A DNA stretch of 64,000 bases from Hyphomicrobiales bacterium. Lineage in GTDB: Bacteria; Pseudomonadota; Alphaproteobacteria; Rhizobiales; Beijerinckiaceae. Position numbers and translations under genes: made by a program. The notes beneath the pieces are model-generated. The model was not told where the DNA came from and searched no databases. It was given only the letters and a program-made list of their open reading frames with translations. The stretch lies in the NCBI GenBank assembly GCA_947454055.1, contig CANGIS010000003.1:1-64000 (forward strand), written 5' to 3'. The first letter of the stretch is position 1. Each line of letters opens with the position of its first letter. Shown piece after piece: positions 34,078 to 55,995 of the stretch.

Positions 34078-35100
34078 ATGACGGACACGGCCAAGAAACG
34101 TCAATCTGCACCGCACGAAAACAGACCGGAGCATAAAGTGACGCGTTGGCTTGGCCCTGTGCTGAGCCTGGCGCTTATCATTGGCTCGTTTTTTGTCCTG
34201 CGGGCGCAGTTGGCTGATGTCACACTCGCCGATGTCGCGGACGGATTTCACAAAGCGTCCTTCGGCCAATTAGGCCGCGCGATTGGCTTCACCCTGCTCA
34301 GTTATATCTTTCTGGCGGGCTATGATTCTCTGGCCATGCGGCAATTGGGGATCAAAATCAGCTCGGCGACCGTAATTTTTGCCTCGTTCACCAGTTATGC
34401 CATCTCGTTCACGCTCGGCTTTCCGCTGCTAACCGCCGGCACCGTCCGATACCGGATTTATTCGGCGAGCGGCGTTTCCTCCTCCAAAGTCATGAGCCTG
34501 ACGCTGATTGCGGGGATGACCTTTATCCTCGGCATGGCCGTGGTCGTGGGCGTCGGGTTGATGTGGCAGGCCGAGGCGATTTCGGCGATCAATCAGGCAA
34601 CGGCCCATATCAATCAGCTTGCGGGAATGGCTGTTTTATCCGGTATCTTGGTCTATCTCGTATGGGCGGCTGCCAAACGCCGCCATGTCAAAATCAAGCA
34701 GTTTCTTATTGAATTGCCGACCCTTGGCGTGTCACTGGGCCAGCTCGCCCTTGGCGCGGCAGATGTTTGCGCCGCAAGTGCGGTCCTTTATGTGCTGTTA
34801 CCGGAGGGGCATGGCATTGCCTTCGAGACCTTCGCGGCGGTTTATGCCTTTGGCTGTATTCTTGGTGTCGTCAGCAATGTACCCGGCGGAATTGGTGTGT
34901 TGGAAAGCACGATGCTCGGTGCGTTTTCTGCCGTTGCAAAGCCCGATTTGATCGGCGCGCTGCTCTTGTTCCGCCTTTGCTACTATCTCGGACCCTTCGT
35001 CCTCGGCGTCTGCAGCCTCGGCATGTACGAGATCGTCATGCGATTGTCACGAAGGCGTGCGGGAGTAGCAGGTCACGCGCCCGAAGGTGACCAATCCTGA
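34078..35100 (+). CDS. MprF-like (UPF0104) integral membrane protein
   Basis: This 340-residue protein has about eight membrane helices and the patterns of the lysylphosphatidylglycerol synthase transmembrane region (FAAVYAFGCILGVVSNVPGG near 255). It has only the flippase-like half; there is no C-terminal aminoacyl-transferase domain. The ATG at 34078 with AAGGA is chosen over the open frame that overlaps the previous gene. It ends 30 bp before phoR, so it may belong to the Pho cluster, where membrane-lipid remodelling would fit. Confidence 0.85.
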   Translation: MTDTAKKRQSAPHENRPEHKVTRWLGPVLSLALIIGSFFVLRAQLADVTLADVADGFHKASFGQLGRAIGFTLLSYIFLAGYDSLAMRQLGIKISSATVIFASFTSYAISFTLGFPLLTAGTVRYRIYSASGVSSSKVMSLTLIAGMTFILGMAVVVGVGLMWQAEAISAINQATAHINQLAGMAVLSGILVYLVWAAAKRRHVKIKQFLIELPTLGVSLGQLALGAADVCAASAVLYVLLPEGHGIAFETFAAVYAFGCILGVVSNVPGGIGVLESTMLGAFSAVAKPDLIGALLLFRLCYYLGPFVLGVCSLGMYEIVMRLSRRRAGVAGHAPEGDQS

Positions 35101-35130
35101 TCATTGACGCGGCTGAAGGTGAGATACGGT

Positions 35131-36207
35131 ATGGAAATGAGCCAGCCTTCCCTTTTGCCCGAGGTGCTTGATGCGCTGTCGGACCCCGTTATTCTGGTGG
35201 ATGGACGAAAGGTCGTCACCTTTGGCAATCGTGCGGCTCTGTCGACATGGCCATCGCTGGTTAAAGGCGCTCCCCTTTCGTTCACGCTGCGGGCTCCGGA
35301 TGTGATCGATGCCATCGAGCGGGTTTTGGCCGGCATCGCGCCCGTTATTCGGGGCACGATGACGGAGCGGCTGCCGGTCGAGCGCTTGTTCGATTTTCAG
35401 GCGGTAAACCTCCTATCCGCATCGGCGGCCAGTCCGCGAACGGCTCCCGCCATCGTGCTTGTTTTCCGTGACTTGACGGAAGCCAGGCGGCTCGAGGCGA
35501 TGCGCGTCGATTTTGTTGCCAATGCCAGTCACGAATTGCGGACACCGCTTGCTTCTCTTTTGGGTTTTATCGAAACCCTGCAGGGTCCGGCCCGCAACGA
35601 TCCGCAAGCGCAAAGCCGATTTCTGGGTATCATGCGCGAGCAAGGTCGCCGTATGGCACGGTTGATCGACGATTTGCTATCGCTTTCCCGCGTGGAAATG
35701 AGCGAACACAAACGCCCTGTCGACGCCGTTGATTTCGGGCTTGTGATCCGTCAGGTCACCGACACGTTCCGGCCGGTTGCGGAAGAGCGCCGCGTCGCGA
35801 TCAATCTGGATTTACCAACGGAATCCATTTTGGTGGTTGGCGAGCGGGATGAATTGCTGCGGGTCGCTGAAAATTTGATCGAAAATGCAATTAAATATGG
35901 TCATGCCGGACAAAGGATCGAACTTGCTTTGACAAGGGAGCGCGCCAGCGTCGGTCGGTGTGATGAAGCCCATTTTACGGTCAGAGACTTCGGGCCCGGC
36001 ATAGCATCCGAGCATCTGCCGAGGTTGACGGAGCGTTTTTACCGGGTGGATGCATCGGCCAGTCGTGAAACCGGCGGAACGGGACTCGGCTTGGCCATCG
36101 TCAAGCACATTGTCAATCGGCACCGCGGACGATTGACCATCGAGAGCGAGGTGGGCGCAGGCTCCCTCTTCCACATTTTTCTCCCTCTGTTTAGTTCGGA
36201 ATCTTAA
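35131..36207 (+). CDS. phoR: Phosphate regulon sensor histidine kinase PhoR
   Basis: The 358-residue kinase has an N-terminal PAS-like domain (SDPVILVDGRKVVTFGN) and a dimerisation domain with H134 in NASHELRTPL. The ATPase domain has N box ENLIENAIKYG, G1 DFGPG and G2 GGTGLGLAIV. It has no transmembrane helix, so it is a soluble form that likely reads the state of the Pst transporter through PhoU. The start at 35131 follows a GGTGAG site; a TTG at 35104 is possible but unsupported. It opens the phoR-pstSCAB-phoU-phoB order. Confidence 0.92.
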   Translation: MEMSQPSLLPEVLDALSDPVILVDGRKVVTFGNRAALSTWPSLVKGAPLSFTLRAPDVIDAIERVLAGIAPVIRGTMTERLPVERLFDFQAVNLLSASAASPRTAPAIVLVFRDLTEARRLEAMRVDFVANASHELRTPLASLLGFIETLQGPARNDPQAQSRFLGIMREQGRRMARLIDDLLSLSRVEMSEHKRPVDAVDFGLVIRQVTDTFRPVAEERRVAINLDLPTESILVVGERDELLRVAENLIENAIKYGHAGQRIELALTRERASVGRCDEAHFTVRDFGPGIASEHLPRLTERFYRVDASASRETGGTGLGLAIVKHIVNRHRGRLTIESEVGAGSLFHIFLPLFSSES

Positions 36208-36239
36208 GCTTTTCCGGAATTCATTTCATCGTCTTACGA

Positions 36240-36277
36240 GTGTCACAAAAATGTCATCCGAAGGCTCTAGGTAGAGT
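36240..36277 (+). promoter_or_regulatory. Pho box and promoter of pstS
   Basis: The direct repeat TGTCAC-AAAAA-TGTCAT (36241-36257) has the 11-bp period of PhoB sites (consensus CTGTCAT-AAAT-CTGTCAT). A possible -10 TAGAGT follows at 36272-36277. PhoB-activated expression of the transporter under phosphate limitation is the expected role. Confidence 0.75.
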
Positions 36278-36282
36278 AGCAA

Positions 36283-36296
36283 GGCGCAAAAGCGCC
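36283..36296 (+). promoter_or_regulatory. Hairpin in the pstS leader
   Basis: GGCGC and GCGCC form a perfect 5-bp stem with a 4-nt A loop, followed by GTTT. It lies between the promoter and the start codon and may stabilise the leader or end read-through from phoR. It lacks a long T-tract. Confidence 0.4.
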
Positions 36297-36373
36297 GTTT
36301 GGACCGATGCACTTTTTGCCGGATCGCAAGGGCAGTTGGGCGTCGGGCTGCTTTTATCTTAGGAGTTCGTTCC

Positions 36374-37390
36374 GTGAAATTTTCGACCCTGATCGCCGCC
36401 GGCTTCGTCCTGGCCGCCTCCGCTTCCGCCGTTCTCGCCGATGACATTTCCGGCGCCGGCGCGACCTTCCCATTTCCGATCTATTCGAAGTGGGCTGACG
36501 CCTACAAAAAAGCGTCGGGCGTTGGTCTGAATTATCAGTCGATCGGATCGGGCGCGGGTATCAAGCAAATTCAAGCCAAGACGGTGACGTTTGGCGCAAC
36601 CGATATTCCGCAAAAGGCCGAAGATCTCGCCAAATTTGGTCTCGTCCAGTGGCCGCAGGTCATGGGTGGTATCGTTCCTGTGGTCAATCTTGAAGGCTTT
36701 GCTGCCGGGGATCTGGTTCTTGATGGGCCAACGCTGGCCAATATCTATCTGGGCAAGGTAAAAAGCTGGGACGATGCGGCGATTGTGAAGCTTAATCCGG
36801 GTTCAAAATTGCCGGCAACGCCGATCGTTGTTGTCCGTCGCTCGGACGGTTCGGGTACAACCTTCAACTTCACGACCTATCTTTCCGCCGTTAATGCGGA
36901 CTTCAAGGCTAATGTCGGTGCCGGTCAAGCTGTCGAATGGCCGGTCGGCGTCGGAGCCAAGGGCAATGATGGCGTTGCCGCCAATGTGATGCAGACCAAG
37001 GGCTCGATTGGTTATGTTGAATATGCTTTTGCCAAGCAGAACGGCATGGTCAACACGGATATGATCAATTCGGCCGGCAAGCGGGTCAAGCCGAAGCTTG
37101 AAAGCTTCGCCGCCGCGGCATCCAATGCCGATTGGAACAATGCTCCGAACTTCAATCTCGTGATCGTTAACCAGCCCGGTGACGAGTCCTGGCCTATGAC
37201 CAATGCCACTTTCATTTTGATGTATTCGCAGCCCGACGATAAGGCTGCCGCGGCCGCTGCTTTGGCGTTCTTCGACTGGTCGTTCACCAATGGTGGAAAA
37301 ATGGCCGAAGAGCTTGATTATATCCCAATGCCGGAGGCGGTTGTCGCGAAGATCAAGTCGTCCGCATGGACGACGATGATCACGAAGTGA
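36374..37390 (+). CDS. pstS: Phosphate-binding periplasmic protein PstS
   Basis: PstS catches inorganic phosphate in the periplasm for the PstCAB importer. The 338-residue protein has a typical signal peptide ([16 protein letters not shown]) cleaved after VLA at about residue 22, then [12 protein letters not shown], as in known PstS. The motif [12 protein letters not shown] near 160 binds phosphate. The GTG start at 36374 has AGGAG 8 bases upstream; the open frame continues back to 36299 but would place the signal peptide inside. Confidence 0.95.
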
Positions 37391-37406
37391 GATCAGCTTG
37401 AGACCC

Positions 37407-37435
37407 TTGAAGCGGTATCGACGATGCCGCTTCAA
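37407..37435 (+). promoter_or_regulatory. Hairpin between pstS and pstC
   Basis: TTGAAGCGG and CCGCTTCAA form a perfect 9-bp stem whose inner loop (TATCGACGATG) can pair further. Such stems behind a binding-protein gene protect its mRNA from 3' decay, letting pstS be made in excess over the membrane parts. No T-tract follows. Confidence 0.55.
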
Positions 37436-37458
37436 TCAGATCACCGGAGCATAGCATC

Positions 37459-38469
37459 GTGTCGACAGTGACCCAGACCATGCAAGACACCAGCAGCAAA
37501 AATACAGCCACGCAGCAGCGGGCCCGTGTTTTGGTTGGAATGGCTTTCGGCGACAAGGTTTTTGCTCTGGCAACAAAGCTGGCGGCCTACACCGTTTTGC
37601 TGGTCTTGGCCGGAATTATTGTATCGCTCGTTGTTGGAGCCTGGCCTGCGATGAAGGCCTTTGGCTTCGAATTTTTGATCACGCGCCGCTGGGCTCCACA
37701 GCTCGAACCGGAGCCGGTTCTGGGCGCCCTTGCGCCGATATATGGAACGCTCGTTTCATCCTTTGTCGCCATGCTGATTGCCGTGCCGTTTGGCTTGGGC
37801 ATCGCTATTTTTCTGACCGAGCTTTGCCCGCACAGCCTGCGCAAACCCATTCGTTTGGCCATTGAACTGCTCGCCGGTATTCCATCCATTATTTATGGCA
37901 TGTGGGGCTTTTTTGTTCTTGGGCCGTTTCTGGCCAATTATATTGAACCGGGTATTGTGGCTGCCTTTGCCAATATTCCGGTGCTGAATACGATTTTTGG
38001 CGGCGAGATTGTTTCAAACCTTAGCCTGTTCAATGCCTCTCTTATTCTTGCCATTATGATTTTGCCTTTCATCACGGCGATCGCCGTTGATGTTTTCTCA
38101 ACCGTGCCTCCGGTTTTGAAAGAGGCGGCTTATGGGATCGGGTGCACGACCTGGGAAGTCGTCAACAATGTCGTGCTGCCTTTTACCCGCGTCGGCGTCG
38201 TCGGCGGTGTGATGCTGGCCCTTGGTCGTGCACTGGGAGAGACGATGGCCGTTACCTTTATCATCGGTAACAGTTTCAAAATATCCGGATCGATTTTTGC
38301 CCCAAGCACCACGATTTCGGCCGCTATTGCGAGTGAATTTGCCGAAAGTTCCGGTGTTCATCAGTCGGCGCTCATTTTGCTCGGGCTCTTGCTGTTTGTG
38401 TTGACCTTTTTTGTTCTGGCCACAGCCCGCTTCATGCTGATGCGGCTTGAAAAACGTGCGGGAGCCTGA
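37459..38469 (+). CDS. pstC: Phosphate ABC transporter permease PstC
   Basis: This 336-residue protein has six membrane helices and the cytoplasmic loop EAAYGIGCTTWEVVNNVVLP, the EAA motif that contacts PstB. The GTG at 37459 has GGAG 9 bases upstream. A cytosolic, threonine-serine-rich N-terminal part of about 35 residues precedes the first helix. It works as the heterodimer partner of PstA. Confidence 0.93.
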   Translation: MSTVTQTMQDTSSKNTATQQRARVLVGMAFGDKVFALATKLAAYTVLLVLAGIIVSLVVGAWPAMKAFGFEFLITRRWAPQLEPEPVLGALAPIYGTLVSSFVAMLIAVPFGLGIAIFLTELCPHSLRKPIRLAIELLAGIPSIIYGMWGFFVLGPFLANYIEPGIVAAFANIPVLNTIFGGEIVSNLSLFNASLILAIMILPFITAIAVDVFSTVPPVLKEAAYGIGCTTWEVVNNVVLPFTRVGVVGGVMLALGRALGETMAVTFIIGNSFKISGSIFAPSTTISAAIASEFAESSGVHQSALILLGLLLFVLTFFVLATARFMLMRLEKRAGA

Positions 38470-38472
38470 ACC

Positions 38473-39315
38473 ATGCCAAGCTATGCCGCACGTCAACGGA
38501 AGAGCACGATCGTCATGGCGCTTTGCCTGATGGCCACGATCATTGGTGTCGCCTGGCTCTTTCTCATTCTGTTTTCGCTGTTGTGGAATGGATTGCCGGG
38601 ATTGAGCCTGAGCACCTTCACCGAGATGACGCCGCCCCCCGGCTCGCAAAGCGGCGGTCTGCTGAATGCCCTCTATGGCAGTTTGGTCATGACCGTGATC
38701 GGCGTGGGTATCGGTGCACCGATCGGCATTCTTGCCGGCACCTATCTTGCCGAATATGGCCGTCATTCAAAAATGACTCCCGTCATCCGGTTCATCAACG
38801 ACATTCTCTTGAGTGCGCCATCCATCATCATCGGTCTTTTTGTCTACGGAGCCGTCGTTGTGCCGATGCGCAGTTTCTCGGCTGTCGCGGGTTCGCTCGC
38901 CTTGGCCGTTATTGTCATACCGGTTGTTGTGCGCACGACAGAAGACATGCTGCTTCTGGTGCCGAACACGTTGCGCGAAGCAGCTTCGGCGCTCGGCTTG
39001 CCGCGCTCGTATGTCATTCGGAAGGTTGCTTATCGTGCCGCCCGCGCGGGGCTTATTACCGGCGTCTTGCTGGCGGTTGCCCGTGTCGGCGGTGAAACGG
39101 CCCCACTGCTCTTCACCGTCTTATCGAACCAGTTCTGGAGCGCCAATCTCCTGAAGCCGATGGCGAACCTGCCGGTTACGATCAATAATTTCATCAATAA
39201 TCCGGATGCGAACTGGAAGCATCTCGCCTGGACAGGCGCGCTTCTGATCACGGTTGCCGTCCTGAGCCTCAATATATCGGCGCGCATTTTCGGCGCGTCG
39301 AAAGATGGTCGTTAA
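38473..39315 (+). CDS. pstA: Phosphate ABC transporter permease PstA
   Basis: The 280-residue permease starts 3 bp after pstC and has six helices, the motif [14 protein letters not shown] near 113 and the EAA-loop [18 protein letters not shown] near 172. Together with PstC it forms the membrane channel of the high-affinity phosphate importer. No anomalies seen. Confidence 0.93.
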
Positions 39316-39351
39316 TGTCTATTTCCCCGCATTATAAGAGCTCGGTGTGTC

Positions 39352-40107
39352 ATGCTTGAAAAAATTTCTGTCAAGGATCTGAAGTTCTTCTACGGGGCGA
39401 ATATGGCTCTGAAGGGCATCAATATTCCGCTATATGCCAATAAAGTAACGGCTTTTATTGGGCCTTCCGGCTGTGGCAAGTCAACTTTGCTGCGAGTCTT
39501 GAACCGGATGTATGATCTCTATCCGGCTCAACATGCCGAGGGGCAGATCGTATTTGACGGCCGCAACATTTTGGACGCCGGTGAAGATCTGAATTTGCTT
39601 CGCGCCCGCATTGGCATGGTGTTCCAAAAGCCGACGCCGTTTCCGATGACGATCTATGACAACATAGCCTTCGGTCTGAAGCTCTATGAGAATCTATCAA
39701 AGTCGGAACTTGATGGCCGTATCGAAGACGCCTTGAAACGCGCTGCACTCTGGACCGAGGTCAAGGACAAGCTAGATGCGAGCGGGTTGAGCTTGTCGGG
39801 CGGTCAGCAGCAACGCCTCTGCATTGCGCGTACCGTTGCGATCAAGCCTGAAGTCATTTTATTCGACGAGCCTTGCTCTGCGCTTGATCCGATTTCGACG
39901 GCAAAAATTGAAGAGCTGATTGATGAATTGAAACACGAATACACGATCGCCATTGTGACCCACAATATGCAACAGGCAGCGCGTGTCTCGGAATATACGG
40001 CGTTTATGTATCTCGGCGAACTCGTTGAATTCGATGAAACGTCCAAAATTTTCACTTCGCCGCGTGATCCACGCACGCAGGATTACATTACTGGCCGCTT
40101 CGGCTAA
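39352..40107 (+). CDS. pstB: Phosphate ABC transporter ATP-binding protein PstB
   Basis: The 251-residue ATPase drives phosphate import. Walker A is GPSGCGKST (K43), the signature [13 protein letters not shown] begins near 148, and Walker [13 protein letters not shown] follows near 172. Length and order are normal for PstB. Confidence 0.96.
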
Positions 40108-40137
40108 CCGAATAAACTCCGATTGGGGGACCTATCA

Positions 40138-40845
40138 ATGACCGATCACACCGTACGCGCCTATGATGACGAGCTGATGGAAATCGGCCGTAAGATCACC
40201 GAAATGGGCGGCATTGCCGAAACCATGCTCTCCAATGCGATCCAGTCTTTGGTCAAAGGTGATACCGACCTCGCCCAGCGCGTCATCGCTACCGATCCAA
40301 AGCTCGATGCCCTCGAACGCGAGATTGAAGAAAAGGCCGTTTTGACCATCGCGCGCCGTCAGCCAATGGCGATCGATTTGCGCGCGCTGGTATCCGCAAT
40401 CCGGATCGCCAGCGACCTCGAGCGCATCGGTGATCTTGCCAAAAATGTCGGCAAACGGGTTGTGGCGATTGATGGCCAGTTTGCGCCGCAAAAAATTGTC
40501 GGCGGCGTGATCCATATCAGCGACCTCGCCCTTGATCGGCTGCACCGCGTTCTCGACGCCTATGCCCATCGCGACGTCGAAGGTGCCATGTCGGTGTGGA
40601 AGGAAGATGAAGAGATCGATCAGCTCTATAACTCGCTCTTCCGCGAATTGCTCACCTATATGATGGAAGACCCGCGCAACATCGGTTTTTGCGCCCATTT
40701 ATTGTTTTCCGCCAAAAACATCGAACGGATCGGCGATCACGCAACGAATATAGCCGAGACGATCAAATATCTGGTCACAGGCGAGAGCATGACAACGGAT
40801 CGCCCCCGTGCGGCCGACGGCTACGCACCGCTCCAAATTTCGTAA
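40138..40845 (+). CDS. phoU: Phosphate signalling complex protein PhoU
   Basis: PhoU links the PstSCAB importer to PhoR and keeps the kinase off when phosphate is plentiful. The 235-residue all-helical protein has the two PhoU repeats, with AIRIASDLERIGDLAKNV near 85 and SAKNIERIGDHATNIAET near 196, both carrying metal-binding E/D residues. The ATG at 40138 with GGGGGA is preferred over a TTG 15 bases upstream. Confidence 0.95.
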   Translation: MTDHTVRAYDDELMEIGRKITEMGGIAETMLSNAIQSLVKGDTDLAQRVIATDPKLDALEREIEEKAVLTIARRQPMAIDLRALVSAIRIASDLERIGDLAKNVGKRVVAIDGQFAPQKIVGGVIHISDLALDRLHRVLDAYAHRDVEGAMSVWKEDEEIDQLYNSLFRELLTYMMEDPRNIGFCAHLLFSAKNIERIGDHATNIAETIKYLVTGESMTTDRPRAADGYAPLQIS

Positions 40846-40878
40846 TTTATTTTCCGTCATACCGAGAGTTCCCCGCTT

Positions 40879-41586
40879 ATGTCTGCAAGACCTCGTGTTC
40901 TGATCGTTGAGGATGAAGAGCCGCTAACGCTGCTTCTTCGTTATAATCTTGAGGCAGAAGGTTATCTCGTTGATAGCGCCGCCCGTGGCGATGATGCGGA
41001 AATCATGCTGCGCGAACAGGTGCCCGATCTTGTCATCCTTGACTGGATGCTTCCTGGCCTGTCCGGAATCGAGCTGTGCCGTAGGCTTAGACTAAGGCCT
41101 GAAACCCAGAGCCTTCCGGTGATTCTTTTAACCGCACGCGGTGAAGAGAGCGAGCGGGTGCGCGGCTTGGCGACAGGGGCCGATGACTATGTCGTAAAGC
41201 CCTTTTCCGTTCCCGAGCTTCTGGCGCGCGTTCGTGCGCTTTTACGCCGTGCTTTGCCAAACCGGGTGGCTACATCCCTCGAGGCGGGTGAACTTTTGCT
41301 GGATCGGTCCAGTCACCGTGTCCGGCGCGGAAACCGCGAGCTGCACCTCGGTCCGACCGAATTTAAACTCTTGGAATTTTTGATGGAACGGCCTGGACGC
41401 GTGTTCACCCGCGGGCAATTGCTCGACAGCGTTTGGGGCATGGACGCCGAGATTGATGAGCGTACAGTCGATGTCCATGTTGGACGCCTGCGGAAGGCCA
41501 TCAACAAACCCCGCGAACGGGATCCCATTCGAACCGTTCGCGGCGCAGGCTATTCTTTTGACGAAAATTTTGGCCGTCGTCCCTAA
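40879..41586 (+). CDS. phoB: Phosphate regulon response regulator PhoB
   Basis: The 235-residue protein has a receiver domain with D55 (ILDWMLPG) as phospho-acceptor and K of VVKPFS, followed by an OmpR-type winged helix (about 135-230: LHLGPTEFKLLEFLMERPGRVFTRGQLLDSVWG). It binds Pho boxes such as the one before pstS. It sits at the end of the pst operon and ends 2 bp from the opposing gcrA stop. Confidence 0.96.
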   Translation: MSARPRVLIVEDEEPLTLLLRYNLEAEGYLVDSAARGDDAEIMLREQVPDLVILDWMLPGLSGIELCRRLRLRPETQSLPVILLTARGEESERVRGLATGADDYVVKPFSVPELLARVRALLRRALPNRVATSLEAGELLLDRSSHRVRRGNRELHLGPTEFKLLEFLMERPGRVFTRGQLLDSVWGMDAEIDERTVDVHVGRLRKAINKPRERDPIRTVRGAGYSFDENFGRRP

Positions 41587-49318: not shown

Positions 49319-50206
49319 TTACGCCGCATAGCGCGTGGCATCTTCGCCATAATGGTCGATATAGCGTGGATGGATTGCGCTAACGGGCAAAATAACCAGC
49401 ACATCGGTGGTGCCGAATTGGTGGTCGATGACCGCACCATCGCCGATTTTTGCTCCCACCCGCAAATAGCCCTTGATTAAAGGGGGCAGCGCATGAAGGG
49501 CCAGCTTGGCATTGATCGTTTCGGCGCCCATCCGGTCCATGGCAACACGGCGATGCGGCAGCGCGCTGGCGCTCCACTTCTGCTCGGCGCGGGCAGAATG
49601 GTGCAAAAAGCTGAGCGGTAACGCCAGCGCGTCAGGGTCCGTCCCCTCAAAGCTCGCGCAGCCGAACATCACGTCGATCTTGTAGCGCTTCACATAGGCC
49701 CAGATGCCGTGCCACAGCAGTTCAACCGTGCGCTTGTCGCGATAAGGTTTGGCGACACAGGAGCGACCAAGCTCCAAGAACCGCGCGTCCGGATGAGCCT
49801 CCAACATCGGGCCGATATCGAATTCGGATGCAGTATAAAATCCGCCATACCGGTTGGCGACATCCTGCCGCAACAGGCGATAGGTGCCGACAACTTTGGG
49901 CTTGGCGAGTGCGTGGTCTATCACCAGCAAATGGTCGCAAATGGCATCGAATGCATCGATATCACGGCGCTTCAGGCGTGAGACGAGGTCTGGAACCGCC
50001 GACATTTCCTCGCAAAAAACCAGGTAACGCAAGCGTTGGGCGCGCTTAATATCTTTCTTCGTTGCGGCAAGGCGCACTTCAAGCGAGCCAATGCGCCCCA
50101 GCGTGAAAGCATCCACCATCGGGCGGTTCAAAAACGAGAGCATGAGACCCGAACCGGCCCGCGCCGCAGAGGCGACATGTCCGGTGATGGTCTTGTGATC
50201 GAGCAT
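49319..50206 (-). CDS. olsB: Ornithine-acyl-ACP N-acyltransferase (OlsB-like)
   Basis: OlsB attaches a 3-hydroxyacyl chain to ornithine, the first step to ornithine lipids. The 295-residue protein is of the GNAT-like hemolysin/acyltransferase family, with FCEEMSAVPDL (near 66), FDIGPMLEAHPDARFLELGRSCV (near 130) and PLIKGYLRVGAKIGD near the end. I prefer ATG 50206, which has an AGGGA site and gives the usual length. An ATG at 50251 adds 15 residues but has no ribosome site. OlsA is not in the window, so the route is split. A candidate Pho box lies upstream. Confidence 0.85.
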   Translation of the reverse strand: MLDHKTITGHVASAARAGSGLMLSFLNRPMVDAFTLGRIGSLEVRLAATKKDIKRAQRLRYLVFCEEMSAVPDLVSRLKRRDIDAFDAICDHLLVIDHALAKPKVVGTYRLLRQDVANRYGGFYTASEFDIGPMLEAHPDARFLELGRSCVAKPYRDKRTVELLWHGIWAYVKRYKIDVMFGCASFEGTDPDALALPLSFLHHSARAEQKWSASALPHRRVAMDRMGAETINAKLALHALPPLIKGYLRVGAKIGDGAVIDHQFGTTDVLVILPVSAIHPRYIDHYGEDATRYAA

Positions 50207-50282
50207 GGCGGCGATCCCTCGCGTGACGTTTCCAGAAAACGACTCTGGCATCGTTTATATATGACAATGTCATCATGAAACG

Positions 50283-50300
50283 CTGACGGGAATATGACAG
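50283..50300 (-). promoter_or_regulatory. Candidate Pho box upstream of olsB
   Basis: On the minus strand CTGTCAT-ATTC-CCGTCAG matches the Pho box layout (CTGTCAT-AAAT-CTGTCAT) in both 7-bp repeats with an 11-bp period. It lies about 80 bp before the chosen olsB start. The spacing to a -10 is not ideal, so treat it as a lead. An extra palindrome ATGACAATGTCAT lies at 50261-50273. Confidence 0.45.
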
Positions 50301-50316
50301 CCGAATATGGTTATGT

Positions 50317-51843
50317 TCAGCTCGTAATGTCCCGCGCCCGGTAACTCAAGGCTTCGGCCAAATGAATTCGGCGGATAGGGTCTGAACCGTCGAGATCAGC
50401 CAGCGTTCGGGATACTTTTAAAACCCGATGATAGCCGCGTGCGGTCAACCGCATGGCATCGGCAGCGCTTCGGAGCAAAGCGAGGCCTGCATCATCCAAT
50501 TGGGCGATTTCGGCCAGATCGCTCACCGGACAGGCCGCATTGCAGGTCACATCGGGTAATCCGAGCGCTTCATAACGCCGTGTCTGGATCGCGCGCGCGC
50601 GGGCAACGCGCAGTGCAACGCCTTTTGAGGCTTCCGATTTTCCTGGCGCTATCAGGTCCGAGGCTGTGACCGAGGGCACCTCGATGACAAGGTCGATCCG
50701 GTCGAGAAACGGGCCTGAAATGCGCGATTGGTATTGCGCCATGCAGGTGGCATTCGGGGCCTTTTTGCAGGTAAATCCGGGCTCGGTGGCGTGTCCGCAT
50801 CGGCATGGATTCATCGCCGCCACGAGCTGGAACCGCGCCGGATAGCTGATGCGATGATTGGCTCTTGCGATAATCACCTCCCCCGATTCGAGGGGTTGGC
50901 GCAGGCTATCGAGTACTTGGGGCTGGAATTCAGGTAATTCATCGAGGAATAAAACGCCATGATGGGCGAGCGACACCTCGCCGGGCCGCGCGCGGATACC
51001 ACCTCCCACCAAAGCGGCCATCGAGGCGGAATGATGCGGCGCGCGGAAGGGCCGTCGATCGGTCAACTCCCCGCCCGCCAGCGCACCGGCTACCGACTGG
51101 ATCATCGAGACTTCCAAAAGTTCCCGCGGCCCCAGCGGCGGCAGGATGGAAGGCAGCCGCGCCGCCAGCATCGATTTACCTGCACCGGGCGGTCCCGAGA
51201 GCAACATGTTGTGGCCGCCCGCCGCAGCAATCTCGAGCACCCGACGCGCCGTTTCCTGTCCCTTGATGTCGGCGAGATCGGGTAATGGCACGCCCTCGCT
51301 GCGGATCACCGGTTCGGGACGGCTGAGCACCTGTGTGCCTTTGAAATGATTGGCGAGCTGAATGAGCGAGCGCGGCGCGATGATCTCGATCTCGCGTGAC
51401 GCCCATGCCGCTTCGGGCCCCGACGCATAAGGACAAATCAGGCTATGCCCGCGGATATTGGCCGCAATCGCTGCAGGCAATACGCCGGCCACCGGCGAGA
51501 TCGAGCCATCAAGCCCCAATTCGCCAAGGACGGTGAATCCCTCCAGCGCATCGGGTGGAATGGCACCAATCGCTGCCATGAGAGCCAGCGCAATCGGCAG
51601 GTCGAAATGGCTGCCCTCTTTCGGCATATCGGCGGGTGCTAGATTGACCGTGATGCGTTTGGCGGGCAGGGCTAAGCCCGAGGCCACCAAAGCCGAACGC
51701 ACCCGCTCGCGGGATTCTCCCACCGCTTTGTCAGGCAGGCCAACAAGATTGAACAGCACTTTGCCCGGCGCGATTTGCGCCTGCACATCAACGGGCTTGG
51801 CCTCGATGCCCTCAAAGGCAACCGTTGCAACGCGCGCTACCAT
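50317..51843 (-). CDS. comM: YifB/ComM-family AAA ATPase (Mg chelatase-like)
   Basis: The 508-residue protein has the N-terminal Lon-like fold (LVGLPDKAVGESRERVRSAL), an AAA+ core with Walker A GPPGAGKSML (about residue 217) and Walker B LFLDELPEF, a cysteine group (NPCRCG, FTCKKAPNATC) and C-terminal helical part. ComM is a bidirectional helicase that speeds branch migration during natural transformation; YifB is its enterobacterial name. All motifs are intact. Confidence 0.94.
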   Translation of the reverse strand: MVARVATVAFEGIEAKPVDVQAQIAPGKVLFNLVGLPDKAVGESRERVRSALVASGLALPAKRITVNLAPADMPKEGSHFDLPIALALMAAIGAIPPDALEGFTVLGELGLDGSISPVAGVLPAAIAANIRGHSLICPYASGPEAAWASREIEIIAPRSLIQLANHFKGTQVLSRPEPVIRSEGVPLPDLADIKGQETARRVLEIAAAGGHNMLLSGPPGAGKSMLAARLPSILPPLGPRELLEVSMIQSVAGALAGGELTDRRPFRAPHHSASMAALVGGGIRARPGEVSLAHHGVLFLDELPEFQPQVLDSLRQPLESGEVIIARANHRISYPARFQLVAAMNPCRCGHATEPGFTCKKAPNATCMAQYQSRISGPFLDRIDLVIEVPSVTASDLIAPGKSEASKGVALRVARARAIQTRRYEALGLPDVTCNAACPVSDLAEIAQLDDAGLALLRSAADAMRLTARGYHRVLKVSRTLADLDGSDPIRRIHLAEALSYRARDITS

Positions 51844-55412: not shown

Positions 55413-55446
55413 TAGCCAAATCATGGTTATTGGATAGGGTAAGTTG

Positions 55447-55716
55447 ATGAGCAAAACAGTATCGGTTCAAGCCCGCATGGAGCCCGAGCTTAAGGCTGAA
55501 GCGGAGGCCATCATGGCGTCGCTTGGTCTCAATGCAACGACGGCAATTACGCTGTTCTACACGCAAATGGTGCGCCAGCGTGGCATTCCGTTTGAATTGA
55601 AGGTGCCGAAAGAGGAGCTGGCTACCGCGATGCGGGAGCTTAAAGATCCAGCCTTTCGTAAGAAGGCGAAGAAATATAGTTCCGTTTCGGCGTTTATGGA
55701 TGATTTAAGCCGGTAA
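55447..55716 (+). CDS. RelB/DinJ-family antitoxin
   Basis: The 89-residue protein has the ribbon-helix-helix N-terminus of RelB/DinJ (TVSVQARMEPELKAEAEAIMASLGLNATTAITLFYTQMVRQRGIPFEL), followed by a flexible toxin-binding tail. The ATG at 55447 is used; the preceding TTG is in frame as well. Its stop is directly followed by the toxin start. The A- and T-rich leader differs from the flanking genes, in line with acquisition. Confidence 0.88.
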   Translation: MSKTVSVQARMEPELKAEAEAIMASLGLNATTAITLFYTQMVRQRGIPFELKVPKEELATAMRELKDPAFRKKAKKYSSVSAFMDDLSR

Positions 55717-55995
55717 TTGCCCTTGATCAAACCCATCATCAAATCCAGTCGTTTCAGGCGAGATTTCAAACGGGTTTTGAAACGCGGATGCGACCCGAGG
55801 AAACTGGAACAAGTGCTTGAGGCGTTGGTCAATGACATCGCCCTGCCGCGCCGCTTTAGGCCGCGTCGTTTACTCGGAGAATATGCGGGCTATTGGGAAT
55901 GCCATATCGAGCCAGATTGGCTGCTGATTTATGATGTAACTGAAGAGTTTGTTGAACTGGCAGCAACGGGTTCCCACGCTGATCTTTTTAAATAA
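55717..55995 (+). CDS. YafQ-type mRNA interferase toxin
   Basis: The 92-residue protein is a RelE-superfamily toxin with the YafQ pattern: YWECHIEPDWLLIYD near 68-82 and GSHADLF at the end, holding the catalytic histidines and aspartate. These cut mRNA in the ribosomal A site. No ATG is available at the start; TTG at 55717 directly after the relB stop, or TTG at 55723, is used. Coding appears complete. Confidence 0.87.
   Translation: MPLIKPIIKSSRFRRDFKRVLKRGCDPRKLEQVLEALVNDIALPRRFRPRRLLGEYAGYWECHIEPDWLLIYDVTEEFVELAATGSHADLFK

Follow-up and report, generated by a model that had tools for sequence, protein, structure and literature searches.

The window analysed here is a 64,000-nucleotide stretch of DNA from a Hyphomicrobiales bacterium (contig CANGIS010000003.1, positions 1 to 64,000), and coordinates without further label refer to it. 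On its minus strand, comM/yifB (50317..51843; TIGR00368, 512.6 bits against a cut-off of 362.4) is the upstream neighbour of olsB (49319..50206), the gene for L-ornithine N(alpha)-acyltransferase, whose product scores 403 bits with NF052555, above the curated cut-off of 320. The gap between the comM stop (50317) and olsB holds an intergenic site, 16 nt downstream of the end of comM, which reads CTGTCATATTCCCGTCAG from 50300 to 50283 on the strand that encodes olsB. It is built of two 7-nt CTGTCAT-like direct repeats with a period of 11 nt, CTGTCAT (unit 1) and CCGTCAG (unit 2), separated by the 4 nt ATTC. Unit 2 differs from the consensus at two positions, so that the box agrees with the E. 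coli consensus CTGTCATNNNNCTGTCAT at 12 of 14 positions, one more than the pstS box of the window (11 of 14). The first-pass annotation had proposed a Pho box fitting the PhoB consensus at 50261-50300, and this claim held exactly for 50300-50283; besides the 18-bp box, that interval contains a weaker third unit and a fourth TGTCAT.

The listed reading frame of olsB starts at 50251, giving a protein of 310 aa, but the true start is probably the ATG at 50206. This ATG is preceded by GAGGGA, and the four closest homologues, whose own ATGs follow purine-rich sites, align from it. Start 50251 is disfavoured because similarity to these four relatives begins only at residues 11-16 of the 310-aa reading, in which the ATG at 50206 is residue 16, and because the ATG at 50251 lies at or before the predicted transcription start. 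The relative G010 also has an open upstream reading, as judged by eye, so this revision is not proof. With the start at 50206, a 76-nt spacer separates the box from the coding sequence.

The regulator expected to bind the box is encoded in the same window, where a phoR-pstSCAB-phoU-phoB cluster spans 35104-41586 on the plus strand. It comprises the sensor kinase gene phoR (35104..36207; adjacent to pstS; searched from 35131, best match TIGR02966 with 316.8 bits, slightly short of the cut-off of 334.2), pstS (36374..37390; NF008171, 408 bits, cut-off 339), genes for PstC, PstA and PstB named by eye, phoU (40123..40845; TIGR02135, 234.4 bits, cut-off 130.25) and phoB (40879..41586; TIGR02154, 332.5 bits, cut-off 296.2). 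A PDB search returned no matches at 1e-50; at 1e-16, its matches included PhoB chains from E. coli, 1gxp among them. The earlier statement that Pho genes lie near olsB stood, with the cluster roughly 9-15 kb off, yet the distance itself is no evidence of regulation; its rhizobial setting has to be amended, the host being an uncultivated Hyphomicrobiales relative rather than an established rhizobium. The genome also carries a second pstS paralogue (G000:C17:9813-10823, plus strand), 82% identical to that of the window, with a weak upstream site of 6.9 bits. Elsewhere in the window, two short adjacent reading frames of 90 and 92 aa (55444-55995, plus strand) resemble a RelB/YafQ-type toxin-antitoxin pair by eye.

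Pattern searches singled out the site before olsB. It was the only zero-mismatch match to CTGTCATNNNNCYGTCAG in the window and the only exact match to STGTCATNNNNYYGTCAK in the whole 2.67 Mb genome. Allowing at most one mismatch to STGTCATNNNNYYGTCAK gave 16 matches genome-wide against 1 for the reversed pattern, and another pattern search gave 65 places against 6; because the reversed control was not composition-matched, neither pair of counts was used as a significance test. Loci were available for 30 of the 65 places, and 7 of those 30 were looked at. Loose matches with three mismatches occurred in the window at the chance rate (6 found, 6.59 expected). The evidence for the box is its exact match, its matrix score and its conservation, rather than the count of loose matches.

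The comparison with a PhoB weight matrix that the first-pass annotation had suggested bears out the box. Using the E. coli consensus as seed, we derived an 18-bp matrix by expectation-maximisation from pstS upstream regions of 29 relatives; the window's own pstS region was held out, and olsB sequences were excluded from training. Among 127,966 placements on both strands of the window, the olsB box ranked second with 17.35 bits. First rank went to the PHO box GTGTCACAAAAATGTCAT before pstS (36240..36257, plus strand) with 24.67 bits, despite its having been held out, and the sites that followed olsB scored 12.73 (35033-35050) and 10.06 bits. A score of 17.35 bits was not attained at any of 2,000,000 positions simulated with a first-order Markov model. 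The third-ranking site, at 35033-35050 on the plus strand (12.7 bits), is intragenic, lying inside the 3′ end of an LPG_synthase_TM gene just before phoR; in the window, coding sequence runs through it and offset 28 lacks a TA, and counterparts of 12.3-16.9 bits were found at the corresponding place in six of the seven other genus genomes examined. For the comparison of phoR promoters, loci L208-L210 were left out and replaced by other loci.

The box is conserved among relatives. After loci with repeated upstream DNA had been removed, 71 of 98 distinct olsB upstream regions had a coding-strand site of 8 bits or more, compared with 3 on the opposite strand and a mean of 2.4 in shuffled sequences. 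Because this set is rich in Microvirga, the count was redone with one locus per genome, in a panel of 81 of the 83 olsB genomes, the window's own included, that leaves out G058 and G085 (contig-end fragments) and the second copies in G018 and G073. Here, sites of at least 8 bits preceded olsB in 52 of 81 genomes (opposite strand 6; shuffled 3.7), and sites of at least 6 bits in 62 (opposite strand 7; shuffled 6.0). The control and comparison panels consisted of the best-matching 30 loci from 55 pstS, 52 olsA, 45 plcP and 58 argF genomes; among the 30 argF upstream regions, one reached 6 bits and none 8 bits. By kinship, the sites of at least 8 bits were distributed over 10 of 11 genomes in the genus, 28 of 41 in the family and 14 of 29 in the order, with 1, 2 and 3 opposite-strand sites, respectively. 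Since 19 of the 81 genomes, including the genus member G007, stayed below 6 bits before olsB, the panel suggests that box and olsB are often, though not always, linked in the order. The box was kept near olsB in L022, where comM is separated from it, and in L041, L027, L030 and L093, in which the fetched locus contains no comM; L064, also without comM in the fetched locus, had only 3.4 bits before olsB. Assignment of the box to comM was rejected, since the box accompanies olsB even without comM next to it.

Downstream of units 1 and 2 the 11-bp phase continues. In the window, the array reads CTGTCAT/CCGTCAG/TCATGAT/TTGTCAT in 11-bp steps and is nearly identical in G009, while G010 and G008 share CTGTCAC/CCGTCAG/TTATGAT/CTGTCAT. 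The third unit (50272..50278, minus strand), TCATGAT in the window and TTATGAT or NTGTGAT in several genus members, takes the NTGTGAT form in the more distant G011, G004 and G003, and none is recognisable in G001. TGT or CGT occurred at the third-unit offset in 15 of 52 olsB sites and in 0-6 of them at any other offset between 19 and 39; at the same offset it was present in 10 of 29 pstS sites and in 0 of 25 plcP sites. As a pair, units 2 and 3 score only −3.2 bits with the pstS-trained matrix; the third unit is thus backed by phased conservation and not by matrix score. The fourth unit, TTGTCAT (50261..50267, minus strand), keeps the same phase and overlaps the predicted −10 element by one base. 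The window and the four relatives closest to it have it as TTGTCA or CTGTCA, and the other aligned genus members lack it. The best matrix site of G008 and G006, with 21.1 bits, consists of unit 4 and a further downstream unit rather than units 1 and 2.

The spacing between the array and a putative −10 element was modelled on the pstS promoters, in which a TA, taken as the −10, starts 28 nt after the start of the box in 24 of 29 cases. In the window, the TA of the predicted −10 element TATATA (50256..50261, minus strand) lies 39 nt past the start of the box, which is 28 nt past the start of units 2 and 3. When nine olsB promoters from the genus, that of the window among them, were aligned on unit 1, seven had a TA at offset 39 (11+28). 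Units 2 and 3 may be the pair proximal to the promoter, an arrangement that predicts this offset. The spacing rule fails order-wide: of the 52 olsB sites, 8 have TA at offset 28, 8 at offset 39 and 9 at offset 23. A consensus scan found no sigma-70 −35/−10 pair at the site, as would be expected of a PhoB-dependent promoter. From the spacing, transcription would start near 50250.

The site before olsB is very probably a functional PHO box. That olsB is tied to Pho control, as the first-pass annotation had proposed, is upheld at the level of sequence by the family scores of OlsB and PhoB, the independently trained matrix, the conservation across the order and the promoter spacing within the genus. 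When phosphate is scarce, PhoR would phosphorylate PhoB, and PhoB, by analogy with established knowledge of this regulator, would bind head-to-tail to the 11-bp-phased units at 50300-50272. Bound PhoB would take the place of the missing −35 element and bring sigma-70 RNA polymerase to a −10 element lying at about 50261-50256. From the predicted starts, near 50250 for transcription and at 50206 for translation, more OlsB would then be made, which would N-acylate ornithine, and a phosphorus-free ornithine lipid would be expected to replace phospholipid.

PhoB could bind the box with only a minor effect if olsB were expressed mostly by read-through from comM or constitutively. The comM gene does lie upstream on the same strand, 16 nt from the box, no terminator-like site was found on the minus strand when 50150-50420 was scanned, and constitutive ornithine lipids are reported in PMC7814305 for Burkholderia sensu stricto, where five species have predicted boxes. 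This explanation is improbable all the same, since the genus has largely retained the box, a phased third unit and the position of the TA as a set, and the box is also found where olsB lacks an adjacent comM. Considerably less probable still is that the site serves another regulator, for example one reading the 11-bp near-palindrome TGACAATGTCA at 50262-50272, which is present in the window and, as TGACTTTGTCA, in G009: G010, G008 and G006 have kept the direct-repeat units but not the near-palindrome, and the matrix that picks out the site was derived from pstS promoters alone. A separate operator at TGACAATGTCA was rejected as not conserved. Chance resemblance, compatible with the chance-rate frequency of three-mismatch matches and with the 15-16-bit sites elsewhere in the genome that lack an evident phosphate link, is scarcely credible and was rejected by the matrix null (2,000,000 simulated positions), the opposite strand (52 genomes versus 6), the shuffles and the argF control.

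Near-matches to STGTCATNNNNYYGTCAK elsewhere in the genome precede phnC (TIGR02315, 330.5 bits, cut-off 266.1), ppk (TIGR03705, 615.5 bits, cut-off 465.85) and olsA (NF052553, 320.8 bits, cut-off 300). Another precedes the gene for a transporter-like protein, whose sole NCBIfam match, 'phosphonate utilization associated', scored 124.8, below the cut-off of 288.15, and a further one precedes a metallophosphoesterase gene followed by a GT4 glycosyltransferase gene, both with NCBIfam scores below the curated cut-offs. From gene order and general knowledge, we take this pair to be plcP-agt. The box of the plcP-like gene was kept at 27 of 30 loci at 6 bits or more; we think that the raised opposite-strand scores of this panel (10 of 30) and of the pstS panel (9 of 30) at that threshold stem from the complementarity of TGTCA and TGACA. 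The remaining near-matches to STGTCATNNNNYYGTCAK in the genome were not linked to phosphate genes. Three sites of 15.1-16.3 bits (C1:23289, C2:65187 and C11:26125) are unexplained or lie inside possible genes, with no phosphate-related gene recognised alongside, so a high matrix score alone is no proof of function.

The box before olsA (G000:C1:138704-138721, plus strand; locus L002) is weak, with 9.8 bits. In the window genome and the five genomes closest to it, a site of 8.5-12.1 bits occupies the same position, yet the olsA box was conserved in only 7 of 30 loci, all from the genus, and in the window genome it lacks a fitting −10.

The genome also encodes a stand-alone acyltransferase (PF19576/PF01553; G000:C8:15731-16672, minus strand; locus L305:533-1474), whose match to OlsF covers the N-terminal half of that enzyme and scores 140.9 bits, less than the 620 set as cut-off for the full length. 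Its box (L305:1501-1518) scores 19.3 bits, and a TA stands exactly at offset 28. The gene was found in 26 of 100 genomes, its own included. Within the genus, the best site reached at least 11.9 bits and began 43-45 nt before the second codon at 12 of 12 loci (11 of 12 genomes), with TA at offset 28 in six of these loci; over all 27 loci of the gene, 21 reached 8 bits, compared with 9 on the opposite strand. One genus member, G005, rated 100% complete, gave no olsB match at E 1e-10 and carries both a boxed olsA and a boxed OlsF-front-like gene. We put forward tentatively, as an unlikely proposal, that in this genus PhoB drives both acylations of ornithine-lipid synthesis, with OlsB as the N-acyltransferase and the OlsF-front-like enzyme, not mainly OlsA, as the O-acyltransferase. 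If true, the genus would have a split, phosphate-induced pair of OlsB and an OlsF front. The opposite-strand sites at 9 of the 27 loci speak against this proposal, and the acyltransferase may instead act on another lyso-lipid, because its presence does not track that of olsB, which is found in 22 of the 26 genomes with the gene and in 61 of the 74 without it.

The window host belongs to the same order as Methylosinus trichosporium OB3b. Overproduction of ornithine lipid under phosphate limitation is described for this methanotroph in PMC9239053. A putative Pho box in the olsB promoter is described for Agrobacterium tumefaciens (PMC3972451), which resembles the window in the gene, the predicted PhoB box and its place in the Alphaproteobacteria, and differs in lineage; its ornithine lipids are given there as reaching 45-50% under low phosphate. 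For Burkholderia sensu lato, olsB Pho boxes were predicted in 21 of 43 genomes with a matrix from alphaproteobacterial training sites; these are Betaproteobacteria, unlike the window host, and some of them have constitutive ornithine lipids (PMC7814305). In Acinetobacter, a CTGTCATNNNNCTGTCAT-type box before olsB is described, and lipid formation was examined in phoR mutants; its olsA is presented as having no box and no phosphate response (PMC11828411), in contrast to the olsA of the window genome and of the five genomes closest to it, which has a weak box. A Pho box before olsB is thus already known in Agrobacterium, Burkholderia and Acinetobacter, and the window adds a further example.

The build of the site is also familiar. 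The E. coli PHO box is described as head-to-tail 11-nt direct repeat units of 7 conserved and 4 less conserved nucleotides (PMC4415409); the window box shares this 7+4 head-to-tail build and adds a degenerate third unit on the promoter-proximal side, which appears as TGTGAT or TATGAT in several relatives of the window genome. Since 10 of 29 pstS promoters have a unit at the same offset, the third unit does not make a new box type. In E. coli, most intragenic PhoB sites are reported as inert, and spacing to the core promoter as important (PMC10294691).

For the genus, we propose the corrected olsB start, the pstS-trained matrix and the spacing rule. The candidate phosphate-linked acyltransferase would open the second step of aminolipid synthesis to testing. 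With the box before olsB, predicted PhoB control over the synthesis of ornithine lipids would reach a further group, an uncultivated Hyphomicrobiales clade whose genomes measure about 2-3 Mb.
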